64,000 nt of DNA from Flavitalea plasmicola. Its GTDB lineage: Bacteria; Bacteroidota; Bacteroidia; Chitinophagales; Chitinophagaceae. The stretch spans positions 682,001 to 746,000 of the forward strand of contig NZ_JAUOTO010000002.1 of NCBI RefSeq assembly GCF_030546645.1. Reading direction: 5' to 3'. Under the pieces are notes generated by a model. That model searched no databases. It saw nothing but the letters and a program-made list of their open reading frames with translations, and was not told the DNA's origin. How positions within the stretch are numbered: the first letter of the stretch is position 1; every line of letters begins with the position of its first letter. A program made the translations under genes and the position numbers. Of the stretch, positions 45,954 to 60,887 are shown in pieces.

Positions 45954-47651
45954 CTATGCCGTGTATTTTGTCGAGATATAGGACAATATGTGTTTTTTGG
46001 ATGCCTCGGTGTCGCTGATCCCTTCCGCCTCCTCTCCCACTTTGGACAGTTCTTCATCATGCACGGTATCTCTGAACCAGCGGGAAAAATCTTTTCGGTG
46101 GAGGTGAAACAGCCATGTTTCCGCGTCGATGCCTTCGGCGATATGAGCAAAGAGCATCAGATTGTTGGCTTTCAGATGCATTTTATTCTCTGGCCCCGTA
46201 AAGATGAAGCTGTTGTAGCCCATGTCGCCTTGCGCGTATTTCTTCTTATGCCGCTGTTGCAGCTGCACCGGTAGATGGAACCGCGCTTTGTAGACAGGCT
46301 TGCCGTCCTCTTCCCTGTTCCAGATCGCTATCTCATTTTCAGACAGGTCGGGAATAGGCGCCGGCATGGGTAGCTGCAGCTTTTCGGAGAATTGCCGGAA
46401 AGGATATGCCGCGTCTCTCCCGATGGCAATCACGGTGCCTACCCTGGAAAGAGAGGTTGTGCTTAACTGATGAGGAGAGGTGCTGATGATAATGAAGTTA
46501 TTAAACTCTTCCGGCAGCTTGTCCGCGAGTGTCTCCGCCTGGCCCGGCACCAGGTGATGGGCTTCGTCCAGCAGGAGCCAGTGTGGATGTCCGAATTCCT
46601 TCCGGAGGTCCAGGAAGACGGTGAGGAATTTTGCGAAGAACGCCGGCCTGTCTGCCAGGGGTATGGCCAGGGTACAGATAACCACATTCTGAGCCGGCTC
46701 GATCAGCAGATGACGGATCTCCTCCATTGGCGGAAGCACCTTGTCGTTGCCGATGACCACGGCGCCCGGCAGCTGCAGATAGTCCCCTTCCGGATCGATG
46801 AGGCAGAACTGGTAGTCTTGTTTGATCATGGTTTCCACGATGGACAGCGTGAAAGTAGTTTTTCCGCTGCCGGAAGCGCCGGCCAGCAGGACCCCTTTGC
46901 AATAGGGACTGATCAGAAAAGGCGATCCATCCTCCAGCTCGCCCAGGTGGAGATAATGCCTGGTCAGCCGGCGGTCCCATTCTTTGAGATCCGTGGCCAG
47001 CATGTCATGGATCAGCTCAACCACTCCCAGTCCGTGGCCTGCCTCCGTCACCCTGTCCGCCAGGGATTTCAACCCGGGCAGCGCATTGGAAACCGCTGCG
47101 GCGAACTCGGCCACCTGCAGCAGCGCCCCGTCATTTTCAGCATCGCCTATGGCTACCACATTATGAACCGAGAGGTGTAAGGAGTGCAACAGCTTTTGCA
47201 GGCCGGTGGCTTTGTTGACGCCCGGAGGAAGGATCATCACCGCGCCTTTGTTGAAGATGACCTGTCTTTCGCTGCCCGAGGCTTTTATCACTTCCAGCAC
47301 TGTCTTTTCGTGCGGTTCCCAGGTGGCGATGATCACTTTCCCCACAGATAGGGGGTGCACGCCCCGTTCCTGCAGGGCCTGGACAAACGATGGGTCGGGG
47401 GGAGGTCCCAACAACTGCTCTTTTCCCGTGGCTGGCTCGTGCAGGAGGGCGCCATTCTCCGCGACAATGTAATCGATGATCTTATAGTCGGGGAATACTT
47501 CCACCAGGTCCTTCATTTCCCGGCCTGTCACCAGGATGAGGCGACGGCCCGCCGCCTTAAAAGCCTGAAGCTCATTCAGTATATTTTCTGATACGCACCC
47601 CTGGTCGGCGAGGGTACCGTCATAATCCGTTGCCAGTACGAGATATCGCAT
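45954..47651 (-). CDS. HAD phosphatase fused to a HerA/DUF87-like ATPase
   Basis: A 565-residue fusion. Residues 1-225 form a Cof-type HAD hydrolase: nucleophile motif in LATDYDGTLADQG (D9, D11), LVTGREMKDL and VVAIGDAENDGALLQ. Residues about 240-480 form a P-loop ATPase with Walker A GASGSGKTT (K264), LIDPEGDY and Walker B LLLDEAHH (D362, E363), as in HerA/DUF87 ATPases. The C-terminal part (HLKANNLMLFAHIAEGID, FHLHRKDFSRWFRD) looks like a small helical domain seen in DUF5752-type proteins; that similarity is from memory. Motifs of both enzymes are intact. Function unknown; possibly NTP-driven handling of a phosphorylated ligand. Confidence 0.85.
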   Translation of the reverse strand: MRYLVLATDYDGTLADQGCVSENILNELQAFKAAGRRLILVTGREMKDLVEVFPDYKIIDYIVAENGALLHEPATGKEQLLGPPPDPSFVQALQERGVHPLSVGKVIIATWEPHEKTVLEVIKASGSERQVIFNKGAVMILPPGVNKATGLQKLLHSLHLSVHNVVAIGDAENDGALLQVAEFAAAVSNALPGLKSLADRVTEAGHGLGVVELIHDMLATDLKEWDRRLTRHYLHLGELEDGSPFLISPYCKGVLLAGASGSGKTTFTLSIVETMIKQDYQFCLIDPEGDYLQLPGAVVIGNDKVLPPMEEIRHLLIEPAQNVVICTLAIPLADRPAFFAKFLTVFLDLRKEFGHPHWLLLDEAHHLVPGQAETLADKLPEEFNNFIIISTSPHQLSTTSLSRVGTVIAIGRDAAYPFRQFSEKLQLPMPAPIPDLSENEIAIWNREEDGKPVYKARFHLPVQLQQRHKKKYAQGDMGYNSFIFTGPENKMHLKANNLMLFAHIAEGIDAETWLFHLHRKDFSRWFRDTVHDEELSKVGEEAEGISDTEASKKHILSYISTKYTA

Positions 47652-47987
47652 GGACCAGGGAGATAAAAAACTGTGCCGTGGCAGTGAGCGGATAAACGCA
47701 ATGACTTCAAGACTAAGTGTTTACTTTGGCTCCATGAAAAAGCCTGCCTGGCAGTCGTAGCTTTTTTTCTACATAATCAAAATTATTGTACTTTTAACCC
47801 GAGCCTTAACAACTGCAATTGAGACCAGATTACCCAAATAAAATCTTTTCCGACCGCCGGAATAGGTATTTTCTCCTCATGGAGACCTTGGCAGAGCTTT
47901 CATTGCTCTAACGCTACTGTTTAGTGCATTTTTTCCTCATTAACCCAATGCGGCCTGCCCTTCCGCCGCCTGTCCAATGCTATTTAA
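47652..47987. other. Intergenic region between divergent genes
   Basis: No convincing protein or RNA gene is seen. It must hold the promoters of the HAD-ATPase and FecR-fusion genes. Visible elements are a CTGCC-T-GGCAG palindrome at 47744-47754, followed nearby by a run of seven T, and a GGCAC box near the HAD gene (about 47673-47677 on the minus strand). Confidence 0.5.
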
Positions 47988-49415
47988 ATGAAACAACCAT
48001 CGTTTATCCGCCGTAGCCAAAGAAGCGACAACGACATCAACTGGTTTGTGCTTTTTACAGAAGGTCACCGGGATGCATTCGCCCATTACTTCGAGGCTAT
48101 GTATCCGGGGCTGTATCATTGCGCCTGCAAAGCGGTGGCTGATCCGGCCATAGCAGAAAGCATCATCCTGGCAGGCTTTGTCGACGCCTGGAAGGTGCGG
48201 GAGGGGCTATTCACGCAGGATGAATTGCGGCGGTTGGTCATGGATAAGGTGAGAGAAGGATGCACCAGCCACCGGCTTTCGCTGGTGAGGGATCATAAGC
48301 ATGACAATGCAGGGGGAACGGATGAATCCTTCTTCCCTGAGGATAGTCCGGATGGATTGACGGCGGGCGCCTCCCGGACAATGCCGGCTATGGATGTGGC
48401 AAGTGCGCTTTCCCGGGCGTTGTTGATCATAGGCGGTGGAGAAAAGAAGCCTTTTTATAAGAAGCAGGGCTGGCAAGCCTTGGCGCTTTGTCTTGCCCTG
48501 GTTGCAGCAGGAGGCGGCGTGAGGTTCGCCCTTCGACATCAGGAAAATGCCCCGGACATTCAAAAGGACCAGCTCCGGAGTGCTGTCCCCGGCACTGCGG
48601 CCGACCTATATGGCGGCGGTAATAAAGCGACGCTGACCCTTGCAGGCGGACAGCAGCTTAAGCTGCAATATCTCCCGCGGGGAAATGTAGCCCTGCAATA
48701 CGGCGCCAGGCTGATAAAAACAGACAGCGCCCTCATCTATGTTCCTGCGACTTCAGCCATCCGGGAAGGGATGGAAGGGCCTCAGTTCAACACATTATCC
48801 ACTCCCCGTGCCGGGCAGTATTCGCTGGTATTGCCGGATGGGACCAGGGTCTGGCTGAACAGCGCCTCCACCCTATCCTATCCCACCTGCTTCAACGGGC
48901 GAAGCAGGGAAGTGACGCTCACCGGCGAAGCATATTTTGAAGTGGTTAAGAACGCCGCGCAGCCTTTTCATGTCAATGTACATAATGTCACCATCCGGGT
49001 GCTGGGGACAGGCTTCACCGTCAGGGCCTACCACGATGAAGGACGCGTAACCGCCACGCTATTGAAAGGAAAGATCGCCGTTCATGATGGGCATCGTGAA
49101 AAAATGTTGATGCCGAATGAGCAGGTGAACATCGACCGGCAAAAGAACTGGCAAATACAGCAGTCCGTCGATCCGGAATCTGTCCTGGCCTGGAAGAACC
49201 ACATTTTCTACTTTATTCATGCAGACATTCCGACCGTCATGCATGAGCTGTCCTTGTGGTATGGGATAGACGTGGAAATAAAAGTACCCGCTGCGCAATC
49301 TATTTATGACGGCGAGTATTCCCGGGATGCAAGCCTTTCGGCCATCCTGAATTACCTGACCAACGAGGATGTGCATTTTGTGCGGGAAGGGAACAAAGTG
49401 ACCGTAACACCATAA
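47988..49415 (+). CDS. Sigma-70 region-2-like domain fused to a FecR-family anti-sigma
   Basis: A 475-residue protein, longer than usual FecR homologues. Residues about 18-96 resemble ECF sigma region 2: NWFVLFTEGHRDAFAHYFEA, LYHCACKAVADPAIAES and a WKVREGL segment, then KVREGCTSHR. No region 4 follows. A transmembrane helix spans about 161-179 (GWQALALCLALVAAGG). The periplasmic FecR domain is clear at about 280-375 (LPDGTRVWLNSASTLSYP, EVTLTGEAYFEVVKNAAQPF) and a C-terminal DUF4974-like domain ends the protein (LSLWYGIDVEI, LSAILNYLTNED). No separate sigma-factor gene adjoins. It leads an operon with a TonB receptor (13 bases apart) and SusD. Confidence 0.82.
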   Translation: MKQPSFIRRSQRSDNDINWFVLFTEGHRDAFAHYFEAMYPGLYHCACKAVADPAIAESIILAGFVDAWKVREGLFTQDELRRLVMDKVREGCTSHRLSLVRDHKHDNAGGTDESFFPEDSPDGLTAGASRTMPAMDVASALSRALLIIGGGEKKPFYKKQGWQALALCLALVAAGGGVRFALRHQENAPDIQKDQLRSAVPGTAADLYGGGNKATLTLAGGQQLKLQYLPRGNVALQYGARLIKTDSALIYVPATSAIREGMEGPQFNTLSTPRAGQYSLVLPDGTRVWLNSASTLSYPTCFNGRSREVTLTGEAYFEVVKNAAQPFHVNVHNVTIRVLGTGFTVRAYHDEGRVTATLLKGKIAVHDGHREKMLMPNEQVNIDRQKNWQIQQSVDPESVLAWKNHIFYFIHADIPTVMHELSLWYGIDVEIKVPAAQSIYDGEYSRDASLSAILNYLTNEDVHFVREGNKVTVTP

Positions 49416-49428
49416 ACACTGCTATTCC

Positions 49429-52400
49429 ATGCGTATCTATGCTGCCATTATTATGGTTTTTCTCATGCATGTCAGCTCCTCCGCAGATGCCCAGGCGACT
49501 TTCGATTGCCATGAAAAAAATATAACAGTCCGGAAAATCATCGATATCATCCGGCAGCAGACAGGGTACTTTTGCTTTTTCCAAAACGAATCCAGGCTCA
49601 TGGAGAGGAAAGTAACGGTGGATATACACCAAATGACCGTGGAAAATTTCCTGAAGATCTATTTTGGGGTGGGCCCCGGAGATTATACGCTGGAAGGGAA
49701 AACTTATGTGATCAAAAGGAAGAATCGCACAGCATCCGGGTTCTTCAGGAATGTTGCTTCGGATACACTGATTGGTCTGCGGGGGAGGATCACGGATATG
49801 AAGGGCGATCCCCTCGCCGGCGTCACCATTGTTGTCGAAGGGACAAAGGAAATGACATTGACGGATTCCACCGGAGATTTTGGGCTCCGGGTTGATCCGG
49901 ATGCGGTGCTGTTGTGCCGCCATGTCAGCATGGACCCGTTGCGCGTTGAGACAGCGGGCAGGAGCTCCCTTCACCTGCGGATGAAAGAAAAGCCCGCGGA
50001 GCTGCAGCATTACAATGTAGTTGCTCCCGTTAGCAATGGCTATCAACGGATACCGAAAGAACGGGCCACCGGCTCTTTTGGCTATATCGACCGGCAACTG
50101 CTAAACCGGACCGTATCCACCGGCGTGACGGACCGGATAGAGAACCTCCTGCCCGGCATGTTGTCCAATCATGGGCAATCCTCCGATGGAACGCCCATCC
50201 GCGAAAAGTTCCTGGTCAGGGGACGCAGCACGCTTTATGCGAATGCGGCCCCGCTGATCGTGCTGGATAATTTTCCGTATGATGGCGACCTGGATAATAT
50301 CAACCCTAGCGACATCGAAAGTATCTCGGTATTAAAAGATGGCGCCGCCGCATCTATCTGGGGCGTCCGGGCCAGCAACGGGGTCATTGTGGTCAACACC
50401 CGCAGGGGAAAGGTCGATGACAGCGCCGGTTCTTTCAGGACGCCCCGACCCGTGTTCAGCTATACCAGCTCGGTCACGTTGCAGTCGAAGCCCGACCTGT
50501 ACAATGTATCTAATATTTCCAGCGCCGACTTTATAGAATGGGAGAAAGACCTTTATGGACGGGGATATTTTACTCCAGACAATACTACCCCGTTCACCCC
50601 CGTGGTGGAAAAGCTCTCACAAGGGCAGCAGGATGGTATCGAAGCCATGAAGGGACAGGATATCCGCAGGGACCTCCGTAAATATCTCTATCGCGGCGGC
50701 GTCAGCCAGCAGCATTTCATCCAGGCCTCGGCCAGCACGGAAAATGCAGGCTATTATCTTTCGGCCGGCTGGGACCACAATGCTTTGAACCTGACGGGAT
50801 CCTCCTTTGACCGGGTGTCCCTGCGCCTGCAAAATATCCTAAGGGTCAGCGCTCCCTTGTATTTAGACGCGGGTGTAAACTTTATCCATACTACCAGCCG
50901 GCACGACGGTAATCCCGGATATAACTACCGGAGCACGCATGCAAACAGAGGTTTTTATCCCTATGCCCAATTGGCCGACGCGCAAGGCCATCCCCTTCCA
51001 TTGTCCTTGGACTATGGACCCGATTATCTCCAGGCAGCGTCCCAGCTGGGTTTCCCGGATTGGAGCTATGTACCCCTGAAAGACCGGCAGGCATCTGAAC
51101 ACACTAATAAGCTCCATGACCTCCTCATCAACCTGGGCGCTCACTATACATTTAGTCCTTCACTGAACCTGGAGCTGAAATATCAATATCAGAATGGAGG
51201 TGCAGCGGGAAGCAACCTGTATGGCGGTGATTCTTATTACAGCAGGGACCTGATCAACAGCTATGTCCAGGTGGACCCTGTCACGCATGGCCTGACTTAC
51301 CCGATCCGGCAAGGCGGGATCCTGGATCTCAGCAACCAGGAGACGAATGCTCATCAGGGAAGGCTGCAGGTGAATTACAATCATACCTGGTCCCGTCGCA
51401 ATACGCTGACGGCCATTGCCGGCTATGAGATCAGGAGCCTGGTGACCACAGGGCGTTCGGACAGGCAATATGGATACAATCCCGAGAATGGCTCCTATTA
51501 TTCCTCCATCGACTACGACTCCAGCTACACCGGCTGGCAAATGTTCAGCCCGGCCCCTATCCCCGGCCATGCACCGTCCACGAAGCTGGTGGATCATTTC
51601 ATCAGCTATTACGCAAATGCCTCTTATACTTTCCATAATCTATATACGCTGTCGGCCAGCGCGAGGGAAGATGTAGCCAACCTTTTCGGCGTGAAGACCA
51701 ACCAGAAAGGAGTGCCCCTTTGGTCGGCAGGCGTCGCCTGGCAGATCAACAACGAATCATTTTATCATCTGGCGGCATTGTCCTACCTGAGACTGCGGGC
51801 TACTTATGGCCGCAGCGGCAATATATCGCGGCTGGCTTCCGCCTATACCACCGCCACCTATGCACAGGGAGGGATCACCGGCACGCCGTATACCATCGGG
51901 TATATACAGGGACTCCCCAACCCCCATCTCCGATGGGAACAGGTGGGCGCCATGAGCGTTGGATTGGATTTTGCCGGCAGGAAGCGACTCATCTCGGGCA
52001 GTGTGGAATACTACCGGAAGAAGGCCGCAGATCTGATGGCGCCTGCCGCCGGCGATCCGACGCTGGGGCTCATCCAAAACCCCGGCGTGCCGGGTTTCTA
52101 CTATGGCAATACCGCCTCCATGCAGGGAACGGGCATCGATCTGCAATTGGAGACGCACAATCTGAACGGAATATTGAAATGGACGACGAATTTTATTTTC
52201 AGCAGGGCTGTGTCGAATGTAAAAAGATACCTGCTGCCTGTCGCTGCCGGTAAGAAATACCTGGATCCGAACGTCATCAGTCCACGTGAAGGCCAGCCTT
52301 TATATGCCATCTACAGCTTCAGATGGATGGGGCTTGACCCGGCCACCGGCGACCCCCTGGGCTATTATAATGGAAAGGCCAGCAAGGATTGGGCGTCGAT

Positions 52401-52929
52401 CTATAATAATACGAACATCGATAGCATGATCTATCATGGTCCCTCCCAGCCCTCCATTTTCGGGGCGATGAGAAATACGTTCCGCTGGCGGTCCTTCACG
52501 GCTTCGTGTAACATCAGCTATAAGCTGGGTTATTATTTCAGGCGGCCTTCCATTAGCTACACGGGCCTTTTCAACACCTGGGTAGGCCATGGCGATTATG
52601 CGCGCCGCTGGCAGCATCCGGGGGACGAGCGCACTACCTACGTGCCGTCCACAGGATATCCCGGCAGCAACTTCAGGGACCTTTTCTATGGCAACTCAAG
52701 CACCCTGGTGGAAAGGGCCGATCATATCCGGCTGGAGGATATCCAGCTCAGCTATGACTTTGACAAAACGCAGCATGCGTGGCTGCCATTTGGCAATCTC
52801 CGGCTTTACGGCTATGTCTCCAACCTGGGCTTGCTGTGGAGGGCCAATCATTCGGGGATCGATCCCTATTATATCAATATACCGAAGGAAGGGCGCCGGT
52901 GTTCGGTGGGTGTAAATGTTAATTTTTAA
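49429..52929 (+). CDS. SusC/RagA TonB-dependent receptor with STN signalling domain
   Basis: A 1166-residue outer-membrane receptor. After the signal peptide (about residues 1-22) comes an STN domain (residues 25-98: ITVRKIIDIIRQQTGYFCFF, KVTVDIHQMTVENFLKIYF), which signals to a FecR protein in the periplasm. A CarboxypepD_reg domain follows (GLRGRITDMKGDPLAGVTIV), then the plug (VRGRSTLYANAAPLIVLDN, IESISVLKDGAAASIWGVRA) and a barrel ending in VGVNVNF. The STN domain and the adjacent FecR fusion make this a transducing receptor. The SusD gene follows after 9 bases. Confidence 0.95.
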   Translation: MRIYAAIIMVFLMHVSSSADAQATFDCHEKNITVRKIIDIIRQQTGYFCFFQNESRLMERKVTVDIHQMTVENFLKIYFGVGPGDYTLEGKTYVIKRKNRTASGFFRNVASDTLIGLRGRITDMKGDPLAGVTIVVEGTKEMTLTDSTGDFGLRVDPDAVLLCRHVSMDPLRVETAGRSSLHLRMKEKPAELQHYNVVAPVSNGYQRIPKERATGSFGYIDRQLLNRTVSTGVTDRIENLLPGMLSNHGQSSDGTPIREKFLVRGRSTLYANAAPLIVLDNFPYDGDLDNINPSDIESISVLKDGAAASIWGVRASNGVIVVNTRRGKVDDSAGSFRTPRPVFSYTSSVTLQSKPDLYNVSNISSADFIEWEKDLYGRGYFTPDNTTPFTPVVEKLSQGQQDGIEAMKGQDIRRDLRKYLYRGGVSQQHFIQASASTENAGYYLSAGWDHNALNLTGSSFDRVSLRLQNILRVSAPLYLDAGVNFIHTTSRHDGNPGYNYRSTHANRGFYPYAQLADAQGHPLPLSLDYGPDYLQAASQLGFPDWSYVPLKDRQASEHTNKLHDLLINLGAHYTFSPSLNLELKYQYQNGGAAGSNLYGGDSYYSRDLINSYVQVDPVTHGLTYPIRQGGILDLSNQETNAHQGRLQVNYNHTWSRRNTLTAIAGYEIRSLVTTGRSDRQYGYNPENGSYYSSIDYDSSYTGWQMFSPAPIPGHAPSTKLVDHFISYYANASYTFHNLYTLSASAREDVANLFGVKTNQKGVPLWSAGVAWQINNESFYHLAALSYLRLRATYGRSGNISRLASAYTTATYAQGGITGTPYTIGYIQGLPNPHLRWEQVGAMSVGLDFAGRKRLISGSVEYYRKKAADLMAPAAGDPTLGLIQNPGVPGFYYGNTASMQGTGIDLQLETHNLNGILKWTTNFIFSRAVSNVKRYLLPVAAGKKYLDPNVISPREGQPLYAIYSFRWMGLDPATGDPLGYYNGKASKDWASIYNNTNIDSMIYHGPSQPSIFGAMRNTFRWRSFTASCNISYKLGYYFRRPSISYTGLFNTWVGHGDYARRWQHPGDERTTYVPSTGYPGSNFRDLFYGNSSTLVERADHIRLEDIQLSYDFDKTQHAWLPFGNLRLYGYVSNLGLLWRANHSGIDPYYINIPKEGRRCSVGVNVNF

Positions 52930-52938
52930 TTTCTTATC

Positions 52939-54312
52939 ATGGATCCACGTCAGCTGTTGCGTTTGGTTGTCCTGCAGGCCCTCCTCTGTGGCGCCTGTAA
53001 GAAAGGGGCCTTCCTGGACACGCATCCGGATCAGTCTATCGCCGTGCCGTCCACCATTGCCGACTGCCAGGCGCTGCTGGACAACGATGTGGTGATGAAC
53101 GGGTATGGCGGGCTGGGTTATCCTAGCCTGGGAGAGACGGGTTCCGACGACTATTATGTGACGGGGCCGCAGTATGGACAATACAAGACAATCGACCAGC
53201 GGGCCGTCGTCTGGGCCACCGACATCTATACGGATGAAGAGGTAAATGACTGGGACCTTCCTTACAGGACCGTCCTTTATGCCAATGTGGCATTGGAAGG
53301 ACTGAAAGCCATCCATCCCTCACCCGACGCACAGGCGGCCTGGAATAATGTCCAGGGGAGCGCCTTGTTCTTCCGGGCCTTTGCCTATTACCAGCTGGCA
53401 CAGGTGTTCTCGCCCGTCTATGACAGCGGCACAGCAATGCAGGCCCTGGGACTTCCCCTGAGAAAATCTACGGATGTGAACGAAAAATTCACCCGGGCTT
53501 CCGTACAGGAAACCTATGACCAGGTGATCAATGACCTGGTTGCGGCGTCCACCTTATTGCCGGACACGACCCGGTACGCTACCCGGCCTTCCAGGCTGGC
53601 CGTCTATGCGTTGCTGGCCAGGGTCTACCTCAGCGCAGGCGCCTGGACCAAGGCGCTGCAGTATGCCGGCTCGTGCCTGGAAATACGGCCTGTCTTACAG
53701 GATTATAATACTTTGGACGCCCATAATCCGCTGCCTTTTACCCGAAGCAACCCGGAAGTGATCTTCGGCGCGACCTATACTTCCAGCGGTCCTTCCGTCG
53801 CCGGGCGAAGCTTGACGGACAGCGTTCTCTTCGCCAGTTATGGGGCCAATGACCTGCGGAAAGCCCTCTTCTTCGAGAGCGGCCGTTACTTCTTCGGGTG
53901 GTATGACGAGAGCGCCTATGCTTTTTGCGGCCTTGCCACCGATGAAGTGTATCTCACCCGGGCAGAATGCTTTGCAAGGACCGGGGATGTGCCTTCCGCC
54001 ATGGCGGACCTCAACCATCTCCTGGAGACACGATGGATGAGCGGTACATTTGTACCGCATACGGCCGTCGATGCTGCAGATGCGCTTCAACAGGTGCTGC
54101 AGGAAAGAAGAAAGGAGCTGCTTTACCGCGGTCTCCGGTGGACGGACCTGCGCCGGCTGAACAAGGACACAGCCATGGCCATCACCCTCACCCGTACTGT
54201 GAACGGCACGGCCTATACGCTTCCGCCTAATGATCCACGCTACGTCTATGCCATTCCCCGCAAGGTGCTGGACCTTAATCCGCAGATGCAGCAGAACATC
54301 CGAATCCGATAG
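52939..54312 (+). CDS. SusD/RagB-family nutrient-binding lipoprotein
   Basis: A 457-residue surface lipoprotein with a short signal peptide and cysteines at 17 and 20 (LLCGACKK); Cys 20 is the likelier lipidation site. The SusD fold shows SALFFRAFAYYQLAQVFSPV, AVYALLARVYLSAGAWTKAL and ERRKELLYRGLRWTDLRRL. It is the binding partner of the receptor just upstream. The substrate is not inferable: no hydrolase or protease gene lies in the unit. Its stop lies one base from the stop of the convergent DUF6520 gene. Confidence 0.94.
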   Translation: MDPRQLLRLVVLQALLCGACKKGAFLDTHPDQSIAVPSTIADCQALLDNDVVMNGYGGLGYPSLGETGSDDYYVTGPQYGQYKTIDQRAVVWATDIYTDEEVNDWDLPYRTVLYANVALEGLKAIHPSPDAQAAWNNVQGSALFFRAFAYYQLAQVFSPVYDSGTAMQALGLPLRKSTDVNEKFTRASVQETYDQVINDLVAASTLLPDTTRYATRPSRLAVYALLARVYLSAGAWTKALQYAGSCLEIRPVLQDYNTLDAHNPLPFTRSNPEVIFGATYTSSGPSVAGRSLTDSVLFASYGANDLRKALFFESGRYFFGWYDESAYAFCGLATDEVYLTRAECFARTGDVPSAMADLNHLLETRWMSGTFVPHTAVDAADALQQVLQERRKELLYRGLRWTDLRRLNKDTAMAITLTRTVNGTAYTLPPNDPRYVYAIPRKVLDLNPQMQQNIRIR

Positions 54313-55744: not shown

Positions 55745-56077
55745 ATGGGACTGACCAAATCGGAAATATTCAGTGATAAGCAGAACAGGCTGGCCGGCAT
55801 GATGAAGGCGCTGGCGCATCCGGCCAGGCTCGCTATCATTCAGCATCTGATCAAGACCAATGCCTGCATCTGCGGCGATCTGGTGGATGAACTGGGTCTG
55901 GCGCAGCCGACCATATCCCAGCATTTGAAGGAATTGAAGAACGCCGGATTGATCCAGGGTACTATTGAAGGCACCAGCGTTTGCTATTGCATCGAACCGA
56001 AGGCCTGGAATTATTATCAGAAAGAGATCGGGGCGCTTTTTGCCGCTTATAAAGGCGGTGACAGCTGCTGCGGGTAA
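55745..56077 (+). CDS. arsR: ArsR-family arsenite-responsive repressor
   Basis: A 110-residue winged-helix repressor of the ArsR/SmtB family. The core is ALAHPARLAIIQHLIKTNAC, then ICGDLVDELGLAQPTISQHL (recognition helix) and LKNAGLIQGTIEGTSVCYCI. Cysteines near the DNA-binding region (CICGDL) and at the C-terminus (SCCG) could bind As(III). Loss of DNA binding upon arsenite would induce the operon. arsM follows after 53 bases with its own operator-like site, indicating auto-control and internal promotion. Confidence 0.93.
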   Translation: MGLTKSEIFSDKQNRLAGMMKALAHPARLAIIQHLIKTNACICGDLVDELGLAQPTISQHLKELKNAGLIQGTIEGTSVCYCIEPKAWNYYQKEIGALFAAYKGGDSCCG

Positions 56078-56094
56078 TTTTTTTGCATGAATTC

Positions 56095-56113
56095 ATCGCA
56101 ATATAGCAATATT
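56095..56113. promoter_or_regulatory. Candidate ArsR operator, copy 2
   Basis: ATCGCAATATAGCAATATT lies between arsR and arsM and shares most positions with the copy before arsR. The perfect palindrome ATGAATTCAT adjoins it on the left. Confidence 0.5.
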
Positions 56114-56130
56114 AAATTAAAACATTTACC

Positions 56131-56973
56131 ATGGCAACGAATGAAGAATTGAAGGATCTCGTCCGCCAAAAGTATAGCGAGATCGCCTTACAGGATAAAG
56201 AGACGAACCAGGCTTCCTGCTGCGGCTCAGGCTGCTGCTCAACCGAGGTCTACAATATCATGAGCGACGATTATGGCGCCCTGGAAGGTTACAATCCGGA
56301 TGCGGACCTTGGTCTTGGTTGTGGTCTGCCCACTCAATTCGCGCAGATCAAAAAGGGCGATGTGGTCATCGACCTGGGGTCGGGCGCCGGCAATGACTGT
56401 TTTATCGCAAGGGTGGAGACAGGGGAAGCTGGCAAAGTGATCGGGATCGACTTTACACCCGCCATGATCGACAAGGCTCGTCAAAATGCGGAAAGGCTGG
56501 GTTTCCATAATGTGGAGTTCCGGCAGGGTGATATTGAAAAAGTGCCGGTGACATCCAACATCGCCGATGTGGTCGTCAGCAATTGTGTATTGAACCTGGT
56601 GCCCGACAAGGACCAGGCCTTCAGGGAAATCAGCCGGATCCTGAAGCCGGGCGGGCATTTTAGCATCTCGGATGTGGTGTTGGCGGGTGATCTCCCCGGA
56701 ACTATCCGCAACGCGGCCGAAATGTATGCCGGCTGTGTGGCGGGCGCCTTGCAAAAAAAGGTTTACCTGGAGATCATTGCATCGAATGGATTCGTCAACA
56801 TAACGCTGCAAAAAGAGAAGCCCATCATCATTCCCGATGATATTTTGTCCAATTACCTGGGCGCCGAAGAGATAGCGCAGTTCAAGGTCTCCGGTGCGGG
56901 CATATACAGCATCACGGTATACGGAGAAAAACCGGCGGACGGGGCTTGCTGCGCCCCCGGCTGCTGCAGCTAG
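56131..56973 (+). CDS. arsM: Arsenite S-adenosylmethionine methyltransferase ArsM
   Basis: A 280-residue methyltransferase that converts arsenite to methylated arsenicals. The SAM motif is VVIDLGSGAGNDCFIARV. Conserved family cysteines are seen in LGLGCGLPTQ, VVSNCVLNLVPDK and MYAGCVAGAL. Two further Cys clusters (CCGSGCC near the start and CCAPGCC at the end) are typical of bacterial ArsM and may bind metal. It lies between arsR and the acr3 gene and is probably induced by arsenite. Confidence 0.95.
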   Translation: MATNEELKDLVRQKYSEIALQDKETNQASCCGSGCCSTEVYNIMSDDYGALEGYNPDADLGLGCGLPTQFAQIKKGDVVIDLGSGAGNDCFIARVETGEAGKVIGIDFTPAMIDKARQNAERLGFHNVEFRQGDIEKVPVTSNIADVVVSNCVLNLVPDKDQAFREISRILKPGGHFSISDVVLAGDLPGTIRNAAEMYAGCVAGALQKKVYLEIIASNGFVNITLQKEKPIIIPDDILSNYLGAEEIAQFKVSGAGIYSITVYGEKPADGACCAPGCCS

Positions 56974-56988
56974 TATAAATAATTCAAT

Positions 56989-58062
56989 ATGAGCGCAACT
57001 AATTGCAATCCTGCCCAAAGAAAGAAACTTAGTTTTTTAGATCGTTACCTGACCTTATGGATCTTTCTTGCCATGGCATCAGGCGTGGGCGTGGGATATT
57101 TCCGGCCGGACGCAGCCAACTTTATTCAATCATTCCAGTCCGGAACGACGAATGTGCCCATTGCCATCGGCCTTATCTTAATGATGTACCCGCCATTGGC
57201 CAAAGTAAAATATGAAGAGCTGGGCCGGGTCTTTACGAATACAAAGGTAGTAACGCTCTCCCTGGTCATGAATTGGATCATCGGTCCTGTGCTGATGTTC
57301 ACCTTGGCGATCACTTTTTTGAGGGACAAGCCGGAGTATATGGTGGGTCTGATCATGATCGGTCTGGCCCGCTGCATAGCCATGGTCATCGTGTGGAATG
57401 AGCTGGCGGAAGGCAACCGCGAATATGCGGCCGGGTTGGTGGCCCTGAACAGTATTTTCCAGGTCTTGTTTTACAGTGTATTCGCCTGGCTGTTCATAAC
57501 GGTGTTGCCACCCTATTTCGGTTTGAAGGGGCTGGCTATCCATATCAGCATCGGGCAGATAGCGCAAAGTGTCATGATCTATCTGGGCCTTCCCTTCTTC
57601 GCCGGGTTCATCAGCCGGAGCATCCTGATCAGGATCAAAGGAAAGGAATGGTATGAGCAACAATTCATTCCCCGCATCAGTCCTATTACCCTCGTTGCCC
57701 TGCTCTTCACCATTGTCGTCATGTTCAGCTTAAAAGGACAGCTCATCGTCGCCATCCCCTTCGACGTCGTAAGGATCGCGATCCCATTGGTCATTTATTT
57801 TGCGCTGATGTTCACCGTCACGTTCTTCTTTGGCAAGTCCCTGGGAGCTGATTATGCAGAAAGCGCGGCCCTGTCCTTTACTGCAGCAGGCAATAACTTC
57901 GAGTTGGCGATAGCCGTTGCGATCGGTGTATTTGGCATCAATTCGGGACAGGCTTTTGCAGGGGTCATTGGTCCATTGGTCGAAGTTCCAGCCCTGATCG
58001 CCCTGGTAAACCTGGCCTTTTGGCTGCGATCCAAATGGTTTGGGAAAACAGTGAGCGCTTAG
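56989..58062 (+). CDS. arsB: Acr3-family arsenite efflux transporter
   Basis: A 357-residue inner-membrane arsenite permease with about ten transmembrane helices. The start [19 protein letters not shown] is typical of Acr3. The essential cysteine lies in [19 protein letters not shown], and a helix pair follows with [19 protein letters not shown]. Later motifs include [17 protein letters not shown]. It exports As(III) using the proton motive force. It lies 15 bases after arsM and belongs to the ars operon. The symbol follows common usage; the protein is Acr3-type, not ArsB-type. Confidence 0.95.
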
Positions 58063-58097
58063 TCATGTAAAAAATCCTTACAGCTAATATTTCGTTT

Positions 58098-58871
58098 ATG
58101 AAGATTGCTTTATTCAGCGACATACACGCCAACCTCCCTGCCCTTGAAGCTTTTTTTGCCGACGTCGAAAAACAAAAGCCCGATGCGATCTATTGCCTGG
58201 GCGACCTGGTGGGCTACAATATCTGGCCCAACGAGGTGATCAACGAGGTCCGTAGACGGGGGATCCCCACTATTGCCGGAAACTATGATTTCGGCATCGG
58301 CCGTTCCAGCGACGATTGCGGTTGCGCCTATAAGACAGATGTCGAGAAGGCCAATGGAGCTGTATCCATTTCGTTCACCAATCAGCGGGTGAAAGAGGAA
58401 GAAAGAAAGTACCTGCGTACCCTGCCGGCGCATATCAGAGTGGAATTTCAGTTGAACCAGGATAAGCTGAACCTTCTGCTGGTGCATGGCAGCCCCCGTA
58501 AGATCAATGAATACCTTTTCGAGGACCGCGATGAAAAGAGCCTACTGCGGATCATGGAGCAGGCAGAAGCAGATGTAATGTGCTTTGGCCATACACATAA
58601 GCCCTATCATCGCGTATTAAACGCAGCGATCGATGGACGGGAGCATTTCCGGCACGCGATCAACATCGGGTCTATCGGTAAGCCTAAGGATGGGGATCCC
58701 AGGGGTGGCTACGTACTACTGCATATACAGGAAGATAGCAGTGTCACCCATTCAGAGACTATCCGGGCGGAGTTTATCCGTTTTGCCTACGATGTGGAGA
58801 AGGCTGCCAGGGCAGTAGAGGACAGCCCGTTGCCGAATGCTTACGCAGAAAGCCTCCGAAAAGGGCTTTGA
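58098..58871 (+). CDS. Metallophosphoesterase in the arsenic operon
   Basis: A 257-residue calcineurin-like phosphoesterase of the YfcE/MJ0936-like type. Metal-binding motifs are ALFSDIHANLPAL (DxH), CLGDLVGYN (GDLVG), IAGNYDFGIG (GNxD replaces GNHD), LLVHGSPR and CFGHTHKPY. An unusual Cys pair lies in DDCGCAYKT just after the third motif. It lies 36 bases after the transporter stop, so it is probably part of the ars operon. Metallophosphoesterases recur in Bacteroidota ars operons, but their substrate there is not known. Confidence 0.9.
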   Translation: MKIALFSDIHANLPALEAFFADVEKQKPDAIYCLGDLVGYNIWPNEVINEVRRRGIPTIAGNYDFGIGRSSDDCGCAYKTDVEKANGAVSISFTNQRVKEEERKYLRTLPAHIRVEFQLNQDKLNLLLVHGSPRKINEYLFEDRDEKSLLRIMEQAEADVMCFGHTHKPYHRVLNAAIDGREHFRHAINIGSIGKPKDGDPRGGYVLLHIQEDSSVTHSETIRAEFIRFAYDVEKAARAVEDSPLPNAYAESLRKGL

Positions 58872-58898
58872 TATACCTGCTCCGCAACCCATATGAGG

Positions 58899-60887
58899 TC
58901 ATTTTTTAACTTTTAATAATCCTGCGTTGATGGCTACCACGATAGTGCTCAGGCTCATCAAAACGGCGCCTGCGGCAGGGCTTAACAATATACCCTGTTT
59001 ATATAAAACCCCGGCCGCCAATGGCAGGGCTATGACGTTGTAGCCAGTGGCCCAGAGGAGATTCTGGATCATTTTACGATAGGTGGCTTTGCCGAAGAGA
59101 ATAAGGCTGACGATATCTTTTGGATTGCTGTTCACCAGCACGATGCCCGCAGTTTCAGCGGCTATATCACTACCGCTGCCAACGGCAATGCCGACGTCGG
59201 CCTGCGCCAGGGCGGGCGCGTCGTTCACACCGTCCCCGGTCATGGCCACGAACTCGCCCTGGCCTTGCAACTCTTTAATTTTTTCCAGCTTTTGGTGAGG
59301 CAATACTTCGGCGAAGAAGTTGTCCATTCCCAGGTCTTTGGCCACACCTTCGGCGACGACCTTGTTGTCGCCGGTGAGCAAGGTGGTTTTAATCTGGTTT
59401 TGATGGAGGGTCCTGATGGCGTCCCGGGATTCGGGGCGTACCTGATCGGCCAGGGCTATAAAGCCGGCAACCTGGTCGTTCACTACAACATATACCAGTG
59501 TTTCACCTGCATTGATCTTTTGCAGATGATCTTTGCCCGCAGACAGCCCGGTGACGGATTGCGGGCTGACAACGGCTACTTTTTTCCCATCCACGACGCC
59601 TGTGATCCCTTCGCCGGATAAGGCTTGCACATCCGCCGCATTGCCCGGCGCGATATCCAGGTCTTTTACTTTTTTGAGTATGCCGGTGGCGATGGGATGT
59701 TCGGATCCCTTTTCAAGAGCGGCGGCTAATCGCATTATATCTTCGGGAGTGAATGCTGCGAGGGTGGACTGGTAACGGACGACCTCGAATTTTCCGATGG
59801 TCAGCGTACCTGTCTTATCGAATACCAGGGTAGTGATCCGGCGTGCATTTTCAAAGGCCGTCCGGTTCCTGATGAGCAACCCGTTCTGAGCAGAGAGCGC
59901 GGTGGATTTTGCAACAACCAGTGGGACGGCAAGGCCCAGCGCATGGGGACAGCAAATGACGATGACGGTCACCATTCTTTCGATGGCGAAAGCCAGCCCT
60001 TTACCATCGATGAACCACCAGGTGAAAGTGACCATCCCTGCCAGGAGCGCAATGATGGTTAGCCACCGGGCTGCGGTGTCCGCCAGCAACTGGGTCCTGG
60101 ACCTGGCCTTCTGGGCATCTTTCACCAGCTGGACGACCCGGGAGAGATAAGAATCGGCCGGACTGTGTGTTACGGATACTTTCAGGACACCGTTGCCATT
60201 GATGGCTGCCGCAATGACCTTGTCCCCTTTGGTCTTATGTACCGGCCGGGATTCCCCGGTGAGCATGGATTCATTCAGGAAGCTTTCCCCTTCGGCGATT
60301 ACGCCGTCTGCGGCGATCTTTTCGCCAGGCTTGACGAGGATCCTGTCACCCGCCGCCAGCGTGCTGGCCCTGACCTCCTTCACCTGCCCATTGTCCTGTA
60401 TGAAATGCGCATCCGAGGGCATGAGCCGGACAAGCAATTCAAGCTCCCTGGAAGCGCCGGCAACAGACTTCATTTCTATCCAATGGCCCAGCAACATGAT
60501 GAGTATGAGGGTGTCAAGTTCCCAGAAGAAGTCCATGCCCTTCAGGCCGGCGACAGTGGCGGCACTGTATACATAGGCTACGGTGATGGCAAAGCCGATA
60601 AGGGTCATCATGCCGGGGTTACGGTCTTTCATTTCATCCCACCAGCCGGAAAGAAAGGGGCGGCCTCCGTACAGGAAGACGAAGGTGGACAACAGCAGGA
60701 GGAGGTAGTCGGACCCCGGGAAAGTAAAAGGGATGTGCATCCAGTGAAGGATCATCGGGGAAAGGAACAGAATAGGCGGGGTGAGCGCCAAAACGGTGTA
60801 GAATCGCTTGCGAAAATCCCGGATCATCATGGCGTGATGATCATGGCTTGCCGGGGAATGATGATCCTGCATCTCACTATGGTTCAT
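58899..60887 (-). CDS. CopB-type P1B copper/silver-transporting ATPase
   Basis: A 662-residue heavy-metal ATPase. The N-terminus is His-rich (NHSEMQDHHSPASHDHHAM) and lacks Cys-type metal-binding domains. Motifs are the phosphatase LTGESRPV, the membrane CPH site in VICCPHALGLAVPLV, the phosphorylation site DKTGTLTIG and the hinge MTGDGVNDAPALAQADVG. The CPH site places it with CopB-type exporters of copper or silver. It is alone on the minus strand. A role in metal detoxification fits the arsenic genes nearby. Confidence 0.94.
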   Translation of the reverse strand: MNHSEMQDHHSPASHDHHAMMIRDFRKRFYTVLALTPPILFLSPMILHWMHIPFTFPGSDYLLLLLSTFVFLYGGRPFLSGWWDEMKDRNPGMMTLIGFAITVAYVYSAATVAGLKGMDFFWELDTLILIMLLGHWIEMKSVAGASRELELLVRLMPSDAHFIQDNGQVKEVRASTLAAGDRILVKPGEKIAADGVIAEGESFLNESMLTGESRPVHKTKGDKVIAAAINGNGVLKVSVTHSPADSYLSRVVQLVKDAQKARSRTQLLADTAARWLTIIALLAGMVTFTWWFIDGKGLAFAIERMVTVIVICCPHALGLAVPLVVAKSTALSAQNGLLIRNRTAFENARRITTLVFDKTGTLTIGKFEVVRYQSTLAAFTPEDIMRLAAALEKGSEHPIATGILKKVKDLDIAPGNAADVQALSGEGITGVVDGKKVAVVSPQSVTGLSAGKDHLQKINAGETLVYVVVNDQVAGFIALADQVRPESRDAIRTLHQNQIKTTLLTGDNKVVAEGVAKDLGMDNFFAEVLPHQKLEKIKELQGQGEFVAMTGDGVNDAPALAQADVGIAVGSGSDIAAETAGIVLVNSNPKDIVSLILFGKATYRKMIQNLLWATGYNVIALPLAAGVLYKQGILLSPAAGAVLMSLSTIVVAINAGLLKVKK

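Follow-up and report, generated by a model that had tools for sequence, protein, structure and literature searches.

A sigma region 2-FecR fusion gene at the head of a SusC/SusD operon in Flavitalea plasmicola and its probable origin by in-frame deletion

The fusion gene and its operon

The subject of this analysis is a gene of Flavitalea plasmicola in which part of an extracytoplasmic function (ECF) sigma factor is joined to part of a FecR-type anti-sigma factor. It lies within a stretch of 64,000 nucleotides (contig NZ_JAUOTO010000002.1, positions 682,001 to 746,000), referred to as the window, in whose coordinates all positions are given unless another locus is named. The fusion gene is an open reading frame (ORF) at 47988-49415 on the forward strand, which starts with ATG, contains no internal stops and encodes 475 residues. 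It is followed on the same strand by genes for a SusC/RagA TonB-dependent receptor of 1166 residues with a carboxypeptidase-D-like domain (49429-52929; TIGR04056, E 2e-126) and for a SusD-like lipoprotein of 457 residues (52939-54312; PF14322, E 2.1e-37). On the other side, a divergent gene on the reverse strand (45954-47651) encodes a HAD-type hydrolase with a HerA-like ATPase part (Pfam Hydrolase_3, E 3.2e-29; DUF87 at the cut-off) and served as synteny anchor, and a conserved small ORF (47819-47911, forward strand) precedes the fusion gene.

The encoded protein consists of an ECF sigma region 2-like part (residues ~18-107, 48039-48308), a junction (residues ~115-134, 48330-48389), a single hydrophobic segment that forms a hydropathy peak and is predicted to be a transmembrane helix (residues ~164-182, 48477-48533), and a periplasmic part with FecR and FecR_C domains (residues 269-473, 48792-49406). 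Pfam assigns residues 269-363 to FecR (PF04773, E 1.4e-17) and residues 407-473 to FecR_C (E 4.7e-10), both above cut-off. Of the features of a FecR-type anti-sigma factor, the transmembrane helix and both periplasmic domains are present, as a preliminary description made from the sequence alone had stated.

The N-terminal part required several lines of evidence. Residues 1-141 alone had no Pfam match at E<=1, and a phmmer search of PDB sequences with the N-terminal part alone returned nothing useful. The NCBIfam model TIGR02985 (Bacteroidota sigma-70) matches residues 30-95 with an E-value of 1.1e-6, a match of 29 bits that is far under the curated cut-off of 126 and covers profile positions 2-67 of 162. 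A search of the same genome (G000) showed that residues 22-102 match three separate ECF genes, with E about 2e-4. We consider decisive the match of residues 5-112 to the full-length sigma factor at the orthologous locus of a congener (G013), with 44% identity and an E-value of 1.5e-24. The region 2 assignment of the preliminary description is borne out in this way, and residues 1-110 show no match to the N-termini of ordinary FecR proteins.

Structure prediction, which had been suggested as a check, agreed with this assignment when an alignment was supplied. With 56 other sigma N-termini aligned, AlphaFold2 produced a helical, sigma region 2-like fold with block-mean predicted local distance difference test (pLDDT) values of 94-98 over residues 21-100. 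The nearest solved structures found by Foldseek were region 2 of ECF sigma factors, e.g. 4lup with a TM-score on target of 0.75; the top four had a probability of 1.00 and E-values of 0.01-0.31, none under 0.001. It should be considered that the model leans on its sigma alignment and is biased by it. A single-sequence control gave a poor prediction (mean pLDDT 52, predicted template modelling score 0.41), with low-confidence helices at residues 25-38, 43-51, 53-71 and 77-94. Taken together, these analyses confirm that the fusion protein is real and that its sigma part, a divergent ECF region 2, is joined to the transmembrane and FecR periplasmic part.

Region 4 of the sigma factor is absent, in agreement with the preliminary description. 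In local alignments to the proteins of G013, sigma homology ends at residue 114 (residue 116 of the G013 sigma factor) and FecR homology resumes at residue 135 (residue 62 of the G013 FecR), so that the fusion holds no counterpart of residues 1-61 of that FecR, and the ~20 residues in between match neither protein. Measured from the sigma start codon to the stop codon of FecR, the locus spans 1428 bp in the window and 1850 bp in G013, a net difference of ~420 bp. Relative to G013, region 4 of the sigma factor and the cytoplasmic N-terminal part of FecR are thus missing; according to PMC9249621, these are the parts in contact in the FecI-FecR system.

As had also been claimed, no free-standing sigma gene lies nearby. 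A scan of the whole genome with a region 2 profile (57 rows, the window gene among them) returned 102 places at E<=1e-5, and within the 64-kb window the fusion gene alone matched. Places in long frames (287-429 residues) of this genome did not overlap FecR places when the two were compared by eye.

The preliminary description further held that the receptor bears an STN domain. Its identity as a SusC protein is clear, but STN (PF07660) appears just as a sub-threshold match over 17 residues (E 0.022; 15.0 bits, with the cut-off at 28.4). Of the receptors at the two orthologous loci described below, that of G006 has a match below cut-off (E 0.008) and that of G013 none.

Orthologous loci in congeners

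Orthologous loci were identified by the divergent HAD/ATPase neighbour, the conserved upstream block and SusC/SusD identities of 61-70%, and were found in two congeners, G013 and G006. When residues 1-161 of the fusion were compared with 148 relatives, one strong match besides the fusion itself was obtained, in G013 (the metagenome-assembled genome Sphingobacteriales bacterium 50-39, phylum Bacteroidota), while five other genomes gave weak matches (E 1e-8 to 1e-6, 27-33% identity). At the G013 locus (L039 on MKTZ01000001.1), the order is divergent HAD/ATPase, a free-standing sigma factor of 215 residues, a FecR of 396 residues, SusC and SusD. This sigma factor matches TIGR02985 over positions 1-158 of 162 (E 2.7e-16), sigma70-ECF (E 4.8e-9) and Pfam region 4 models (E 0.004-0.011), all below the respective cut-offs. 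Identity between the window and G013 amounts to 70% for the HAD protein, 61-63% for SusC (63% over 984 aligned columns), 62% for SusD and 58% for the FecR periplasmic part.

When the N-terminal 194 residues of the receptor were compared with 33 genomes of the genus, G006 was found at 61% identity; among the matches listed, G018 came next by E-value (33%) and the G013 orthologue stood lower (36%). The G006 locus (L096) contains the HAD/ATPase gene, the upstream block, SusC and SusD, with identities to the window of 83% (HAD), 69% (SusC) and 66-67% (SusD). Neither a sigma nor a FecR gene was found at this locus, and about 50 bases separate the conserved small ORF from the start of SusC. Elsewhere in G006, the 49 FecR matches at E<=1e-40 reach at most 43% identity and the best sigma matches are 27-28% identical, and thus no moved orthologue of either gene is seen. 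As the window is nearer to G006 than to G013 by the HAD gene (83% against 70%), the state of G006 is read as loss, a reading based on the identity of this gene rather than on a tree. The three loci, with separate sigma and FecR genes in G013, the fusion in the window and neither gene in G006, look like the stepwise loss of a signalling module whose transporter stays: complete, fused remnant, absent.

The same fusion was not found in a second genome, whether among the 148 relatives, the 33 genomes of the genus (here queried with the orthologous sigma factor), 394 genomes of the family or genome_contigs. These three genome sets overlap, and the searches reach relatives of this particular sigma factor; a fusion built on a distant one would be missed. 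The 394 family genomes, drawn evenly from a larger group, included six other matching genomes with sigma frames of 198-210 residues, and the positive control, G013, was not among the matches. With the two N-terminal parts as queries, genome_contigs yielded a single locus, which belongs to the G013 record itself, and of the 164 plasmid records that matched, none did so over 80% of the query. We also considered 59 FecR loci of G000 and G013 (L002-L030 and L054-L083), which are the best-scoring part of 92 and 51 matches in the two genomes, respectively. Here, the ORFs matched by the sigma profile numbered 57 and measured 180-240 residues, none being of FecR length. Sigma was not detected at three of these loci, two with ordinary FecR N-termini (L021 and L064) and one with a short FecR (L071). 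By eye, the gene upstream of FecR at L021 (G000, C15:589751-590719) and L064 (G013, C9:264458-265417) looks like a TraG-type ATPase of conjugation. In titles and abstract openings of the literature, we found no sigma region 2-FecR fusion from Bacteroidota.

The region 2 part is unusually divergent. Against a leave-one-out profile of 55 other ECF sigma factors from G000 and G013, it reaches 36.4 bits, compared with 46.1 bits for its G013 orthologue and 61.8-110.8 bits (median 90.1) for the 55 others. The usually conserved positions D27, E/D58, Q61 and D/E62, which we take to include residues of the core-polymerase-binding helix, are replaced in both the window and the G013 versions, and the sigma factor was thus probably atypical already ahead of the fusion event. 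Between the window and G013, non-synonymous divergence (dN) is 0.52 for region 2, 0.32 for the FecR periplasmic part (with a synonymous divergence, dS, of 2.7), 0.32 for SusD, 0.28 for SusC and 0.22 for the HAD protein. In these comparisons, dS is at or near saturation. Among 29 loci of each of the two genomes, seven reciprocal-best FecR pairs with sigma factors were obtained. In five of these, FecR identities of 74, 68, 67, 63 and 47% were accompanied by region 2 identities of 84, 77, 81, 61 and 81%, respectively; in the other two, which we regard as doubtful orthologues, FecR identities of 46.7 and 44.0% were accompanied by 37 and 34%.

Neighbouring features were also recorded. The HAD hydrolase with its HerA-like ATPase part (45954-47651, reverse strand) adjoins the operon in all three congeners. 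According to receptor alignments, the carboxypeptidase-D-like domain is kept in the window and G006, and the G013 receptor (L039, 9014-12355, reverse strand) seems to lack most of it between its N-terminal part and the plug. Downstream of the operon (55745-60887), ORFs read by eye presumably encode an ArsR-like regulator, an arsenite methyltransferase-like protein, an ACR3-like transporter and a P-type ATPase.

A conserved small ORF upstream of the operon

All three loci share an upstream block that is coding. It contains a leader-peptide-like ORF of 30 codons (47819-47911, forward strand), whose product is 82-86% identical in G013 and G006 and which starts with TTG in the window and G013 and with GTG in G006. 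At E<=0.01, 78 of 196 relatives and 49 of 134 genera contain a match to the peptide, with up to four copies per genome. A class-wide draw of 295 genomes, for which the share of family members is not given, yielded four matches at E<=0.001, three from the same family and a weak one from outside it. Members of the family lie in the window and at L098-L113, L114, L115-L126 and L127-L135. We read 39 copies, 30 from the search of relatives and nine further from G000, G006 and G013. They span about 27-47 codons, the first aligned codon being ATG in 26, TTG in 12 and GTG in one, and follow the pattern M-x-P-D-Y-P-x-K-x-F-x-D-x-R...LL-x-E-x-LA, with P3, D4, Y5, K8, F10, D12, R14 and L20 invariant. Variation is greatest at third codon positions (mean entropy of 0.84, 0.51 and 1.39 bits at positions 1, 2 and 3, and 1.83 and 1.89 bits in the flanks). 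An Rfam search of 47600-48100 gave a Xist exon as its sole match, at 15.7 bits against a threshold of 50.

The genes 3' of the 39 copies encode 4-hydroxyphenylpyruvate dioxygenase in 21 cases, LytTR proteins in eight, phosphoenolpyruvate synthase in three, tyrosine phenol-lyase/tryptophanase-like proteins in two, a histidine decarboxylase-like protein and an ECF sigma factor in one each, and the SusC/SusD operon in three (window, G013 and G006). These labels were tested on one representative each and otherwise assigned by eye, one LytTR (L133) from its first codons only.

As a candidate promoter element, the three-locus alignment reveals a -7 box, TACTTTTA (47789-47796, forward strand), with TA[CT]TTTTA in all three loci. 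Across the 39 copies, boxes were scored as TAnnTTT[GA], the Bacteroidota consensus being, we assume, TAnnTTTG. Such a box occurs within 120 bases 5' of the ORF in 24 of the 39 copies, against a mean of 7.05 and a maximum of 14 in mononucleotide shuffles. In 18 copies, it ends 4-10 bases before the start codon, which suggests that the message of these copies is leaderless or nearly so; at the three operon loci (window, G013 and G006), the distance is 22-24 bases.

Three of the peptides were searched against Pfam and none matched a family. A possible attenuator was considered by looking for terminator-like hairpins and found no support. T-runs are frequent, but hairpins with a T-run do not uniformly follow the 39 ORFs, and the nearby terminator-like matches in the window (47848-47862, both strands) fall inside the small ORF. 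Titles and abstract openings in the literature offered nothing connectable to such a leader peptide. Judged by its sequence, the small ORF looks like an undescribed leader peptide, a lead that stands outside the mechanism examined here. Its retention points to a different layer of control over SusC/SusD.

Origin of the fusion and comparison with known systems

We favour the view that the fusion arose by an in-frame deletion within a cell-surface-signalling operon of the ordinary kind and now probably represents a module in decay, rather than a new tethered sigma factor. The ancestral operon would have had the order sigma, FecR, SusC, SusD that is ordinary for such signalling in Bacteroidota. 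The deletion would have taken the sigma linker and region 4 together with the boundary between the two genes and some 60 residues from the N-terminus of FecR, which by their position we take to be the anti-sigma domain (no family model matched them), thereby joining region 2 to the transmembrane and periplasmic parts of FecR; the direction of change would thus be loss. Having lost region 4 (presumably the -35-binding region) and the N-terminal part of FecR, and with its region 2 degenerate, the product could not be expected to pass a receptor signal to a promoter. It would neither direct transcription nor restrain a sigma factor, and the signalling path would be broken. SusC and SusD would then be expressed from the conserved region 5' of the small ORF without a sigma factor from this locus, apparently as in G006, and the fusion would be a transitional relic that perhaps still touches the receptor in the periplasm. 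A further step, that control of the operon passed from the sigma/anti-sigma pair to a family-wide, nutrient-sensing leader peptide, of which hand-over the fusion would be a fossil, is possible but speculative.

Several points weigh against the deletion and decay view and need to be considered. All 475 codons remain in an open frame, although damage would be expected in a gene dead for long, and the divergence of the FecR periplasmic part from G013 is about that of SusD and slightly above that of SusC. Both leave a residual role of the fusion possible. As a second genome with the fusion was not found in the searched sets, the fusion cannot be dated nor later selection on it gauged, and G006 could have lost its sigma and FecR genes independently. 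Finally, the contrast in region 2 identity between the window and G013 (44%) and the five pairs with FecR identities of 47-74% (61-84%) depends on a FecR cut of 47% that was set after the table was seen.

The intact frame would also fit a working adaptor or decoy, whose tethered region 2 would have another sigma factor, core polymerase or a paralogous FecR as its partner and be freed when the receptor signals through the FecR periplasmic domain. The confident fold obtained with the alignment, the 58% identity of the periplasmic part to G013 and the 102 region 2-like places in the genome as possible partners are compatible with such a role. We nonetheless hold it to be unlikely, as usually conserved region 2 residues are replaced, the closer relative G006 lacks the module at this locus and no second occurrence was found in the overlapping sets of 148, 33 and 394 genomes. 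An artefact of assembly or sequencing, by which the organism would possess both genes and the deletion would exist in the assembly alone, is quite improbable: the fusion occurs in one genome among those searched and the locus is known from the assembled sequence, but it is internal to a 1.19 Mb contig, the junction is in frame, the ~20 residues unlike either parent and the faster divergence of region 2 do not resemble a fresh join, and G006 likewise lacks sequence at the same place. A membrane-tethered sigma factor released by regulated proteolysis and acting by region 2 alone shares with IutY (see below) the order of region 2, transmembrane helix and FecR periplasmic part, but is hardly credible in a protein without region 4 in which usually conserved region 2 positions are replaced. 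The preliminary description had offered three functional readings, a tethered sigma factor released by proteolysis, a decoy and a holder of another sigma factor; no support was found for any of them, nor were the further fusions that it had proposed to look for found in the genome sets named above, and G013 shows an ordinary system of separate genes. Sigma/anti-sigma fusions should thus not be read as new signalling designs before the orthologous locus has been checked.

Among known systems, the closest in architecture is IutY of Pseudomonas putida (ECF243), a sigma/anti-sigma hybrid with region 2 at residues 8-84 and region 4 at residues 100-164 (PMC9249621), which acts as a sigma factor activated by proteolysis and freed by Prc and RseP (PMC5411451, PMC9249621, PMC8999054). 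IutY resembles the window protein in combining a cytoplasmic sigma part, a single transmembrane helix and a FecR-like periplasmic part in one chain and in its association with a TonB-dependent receptor, with which IutY acts. Unlike IutY, with its complete regions 2 and 4, the window protein has no region 4 and a degenerate region 2 and looks like a deletion product. Some ECF36 sigma factors also hold a sigma factor and a membrane anti-sigma factor in one chain, but according to PMC8999054, their extension is N-terminal, with three to four transmembrane helices and a DUF2275 domain. Gene order and partners are those of FecI/FecR/FecA signalling with separate genes, of which G013 has the ordinary version, whereas the window lacks a separate sigma factor and the N-terminal cytoplasmic domain of FecR. 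Sigma/anti-sigma hybrids are already known, and the fusion is best read as a variant and not as a new signalling design.

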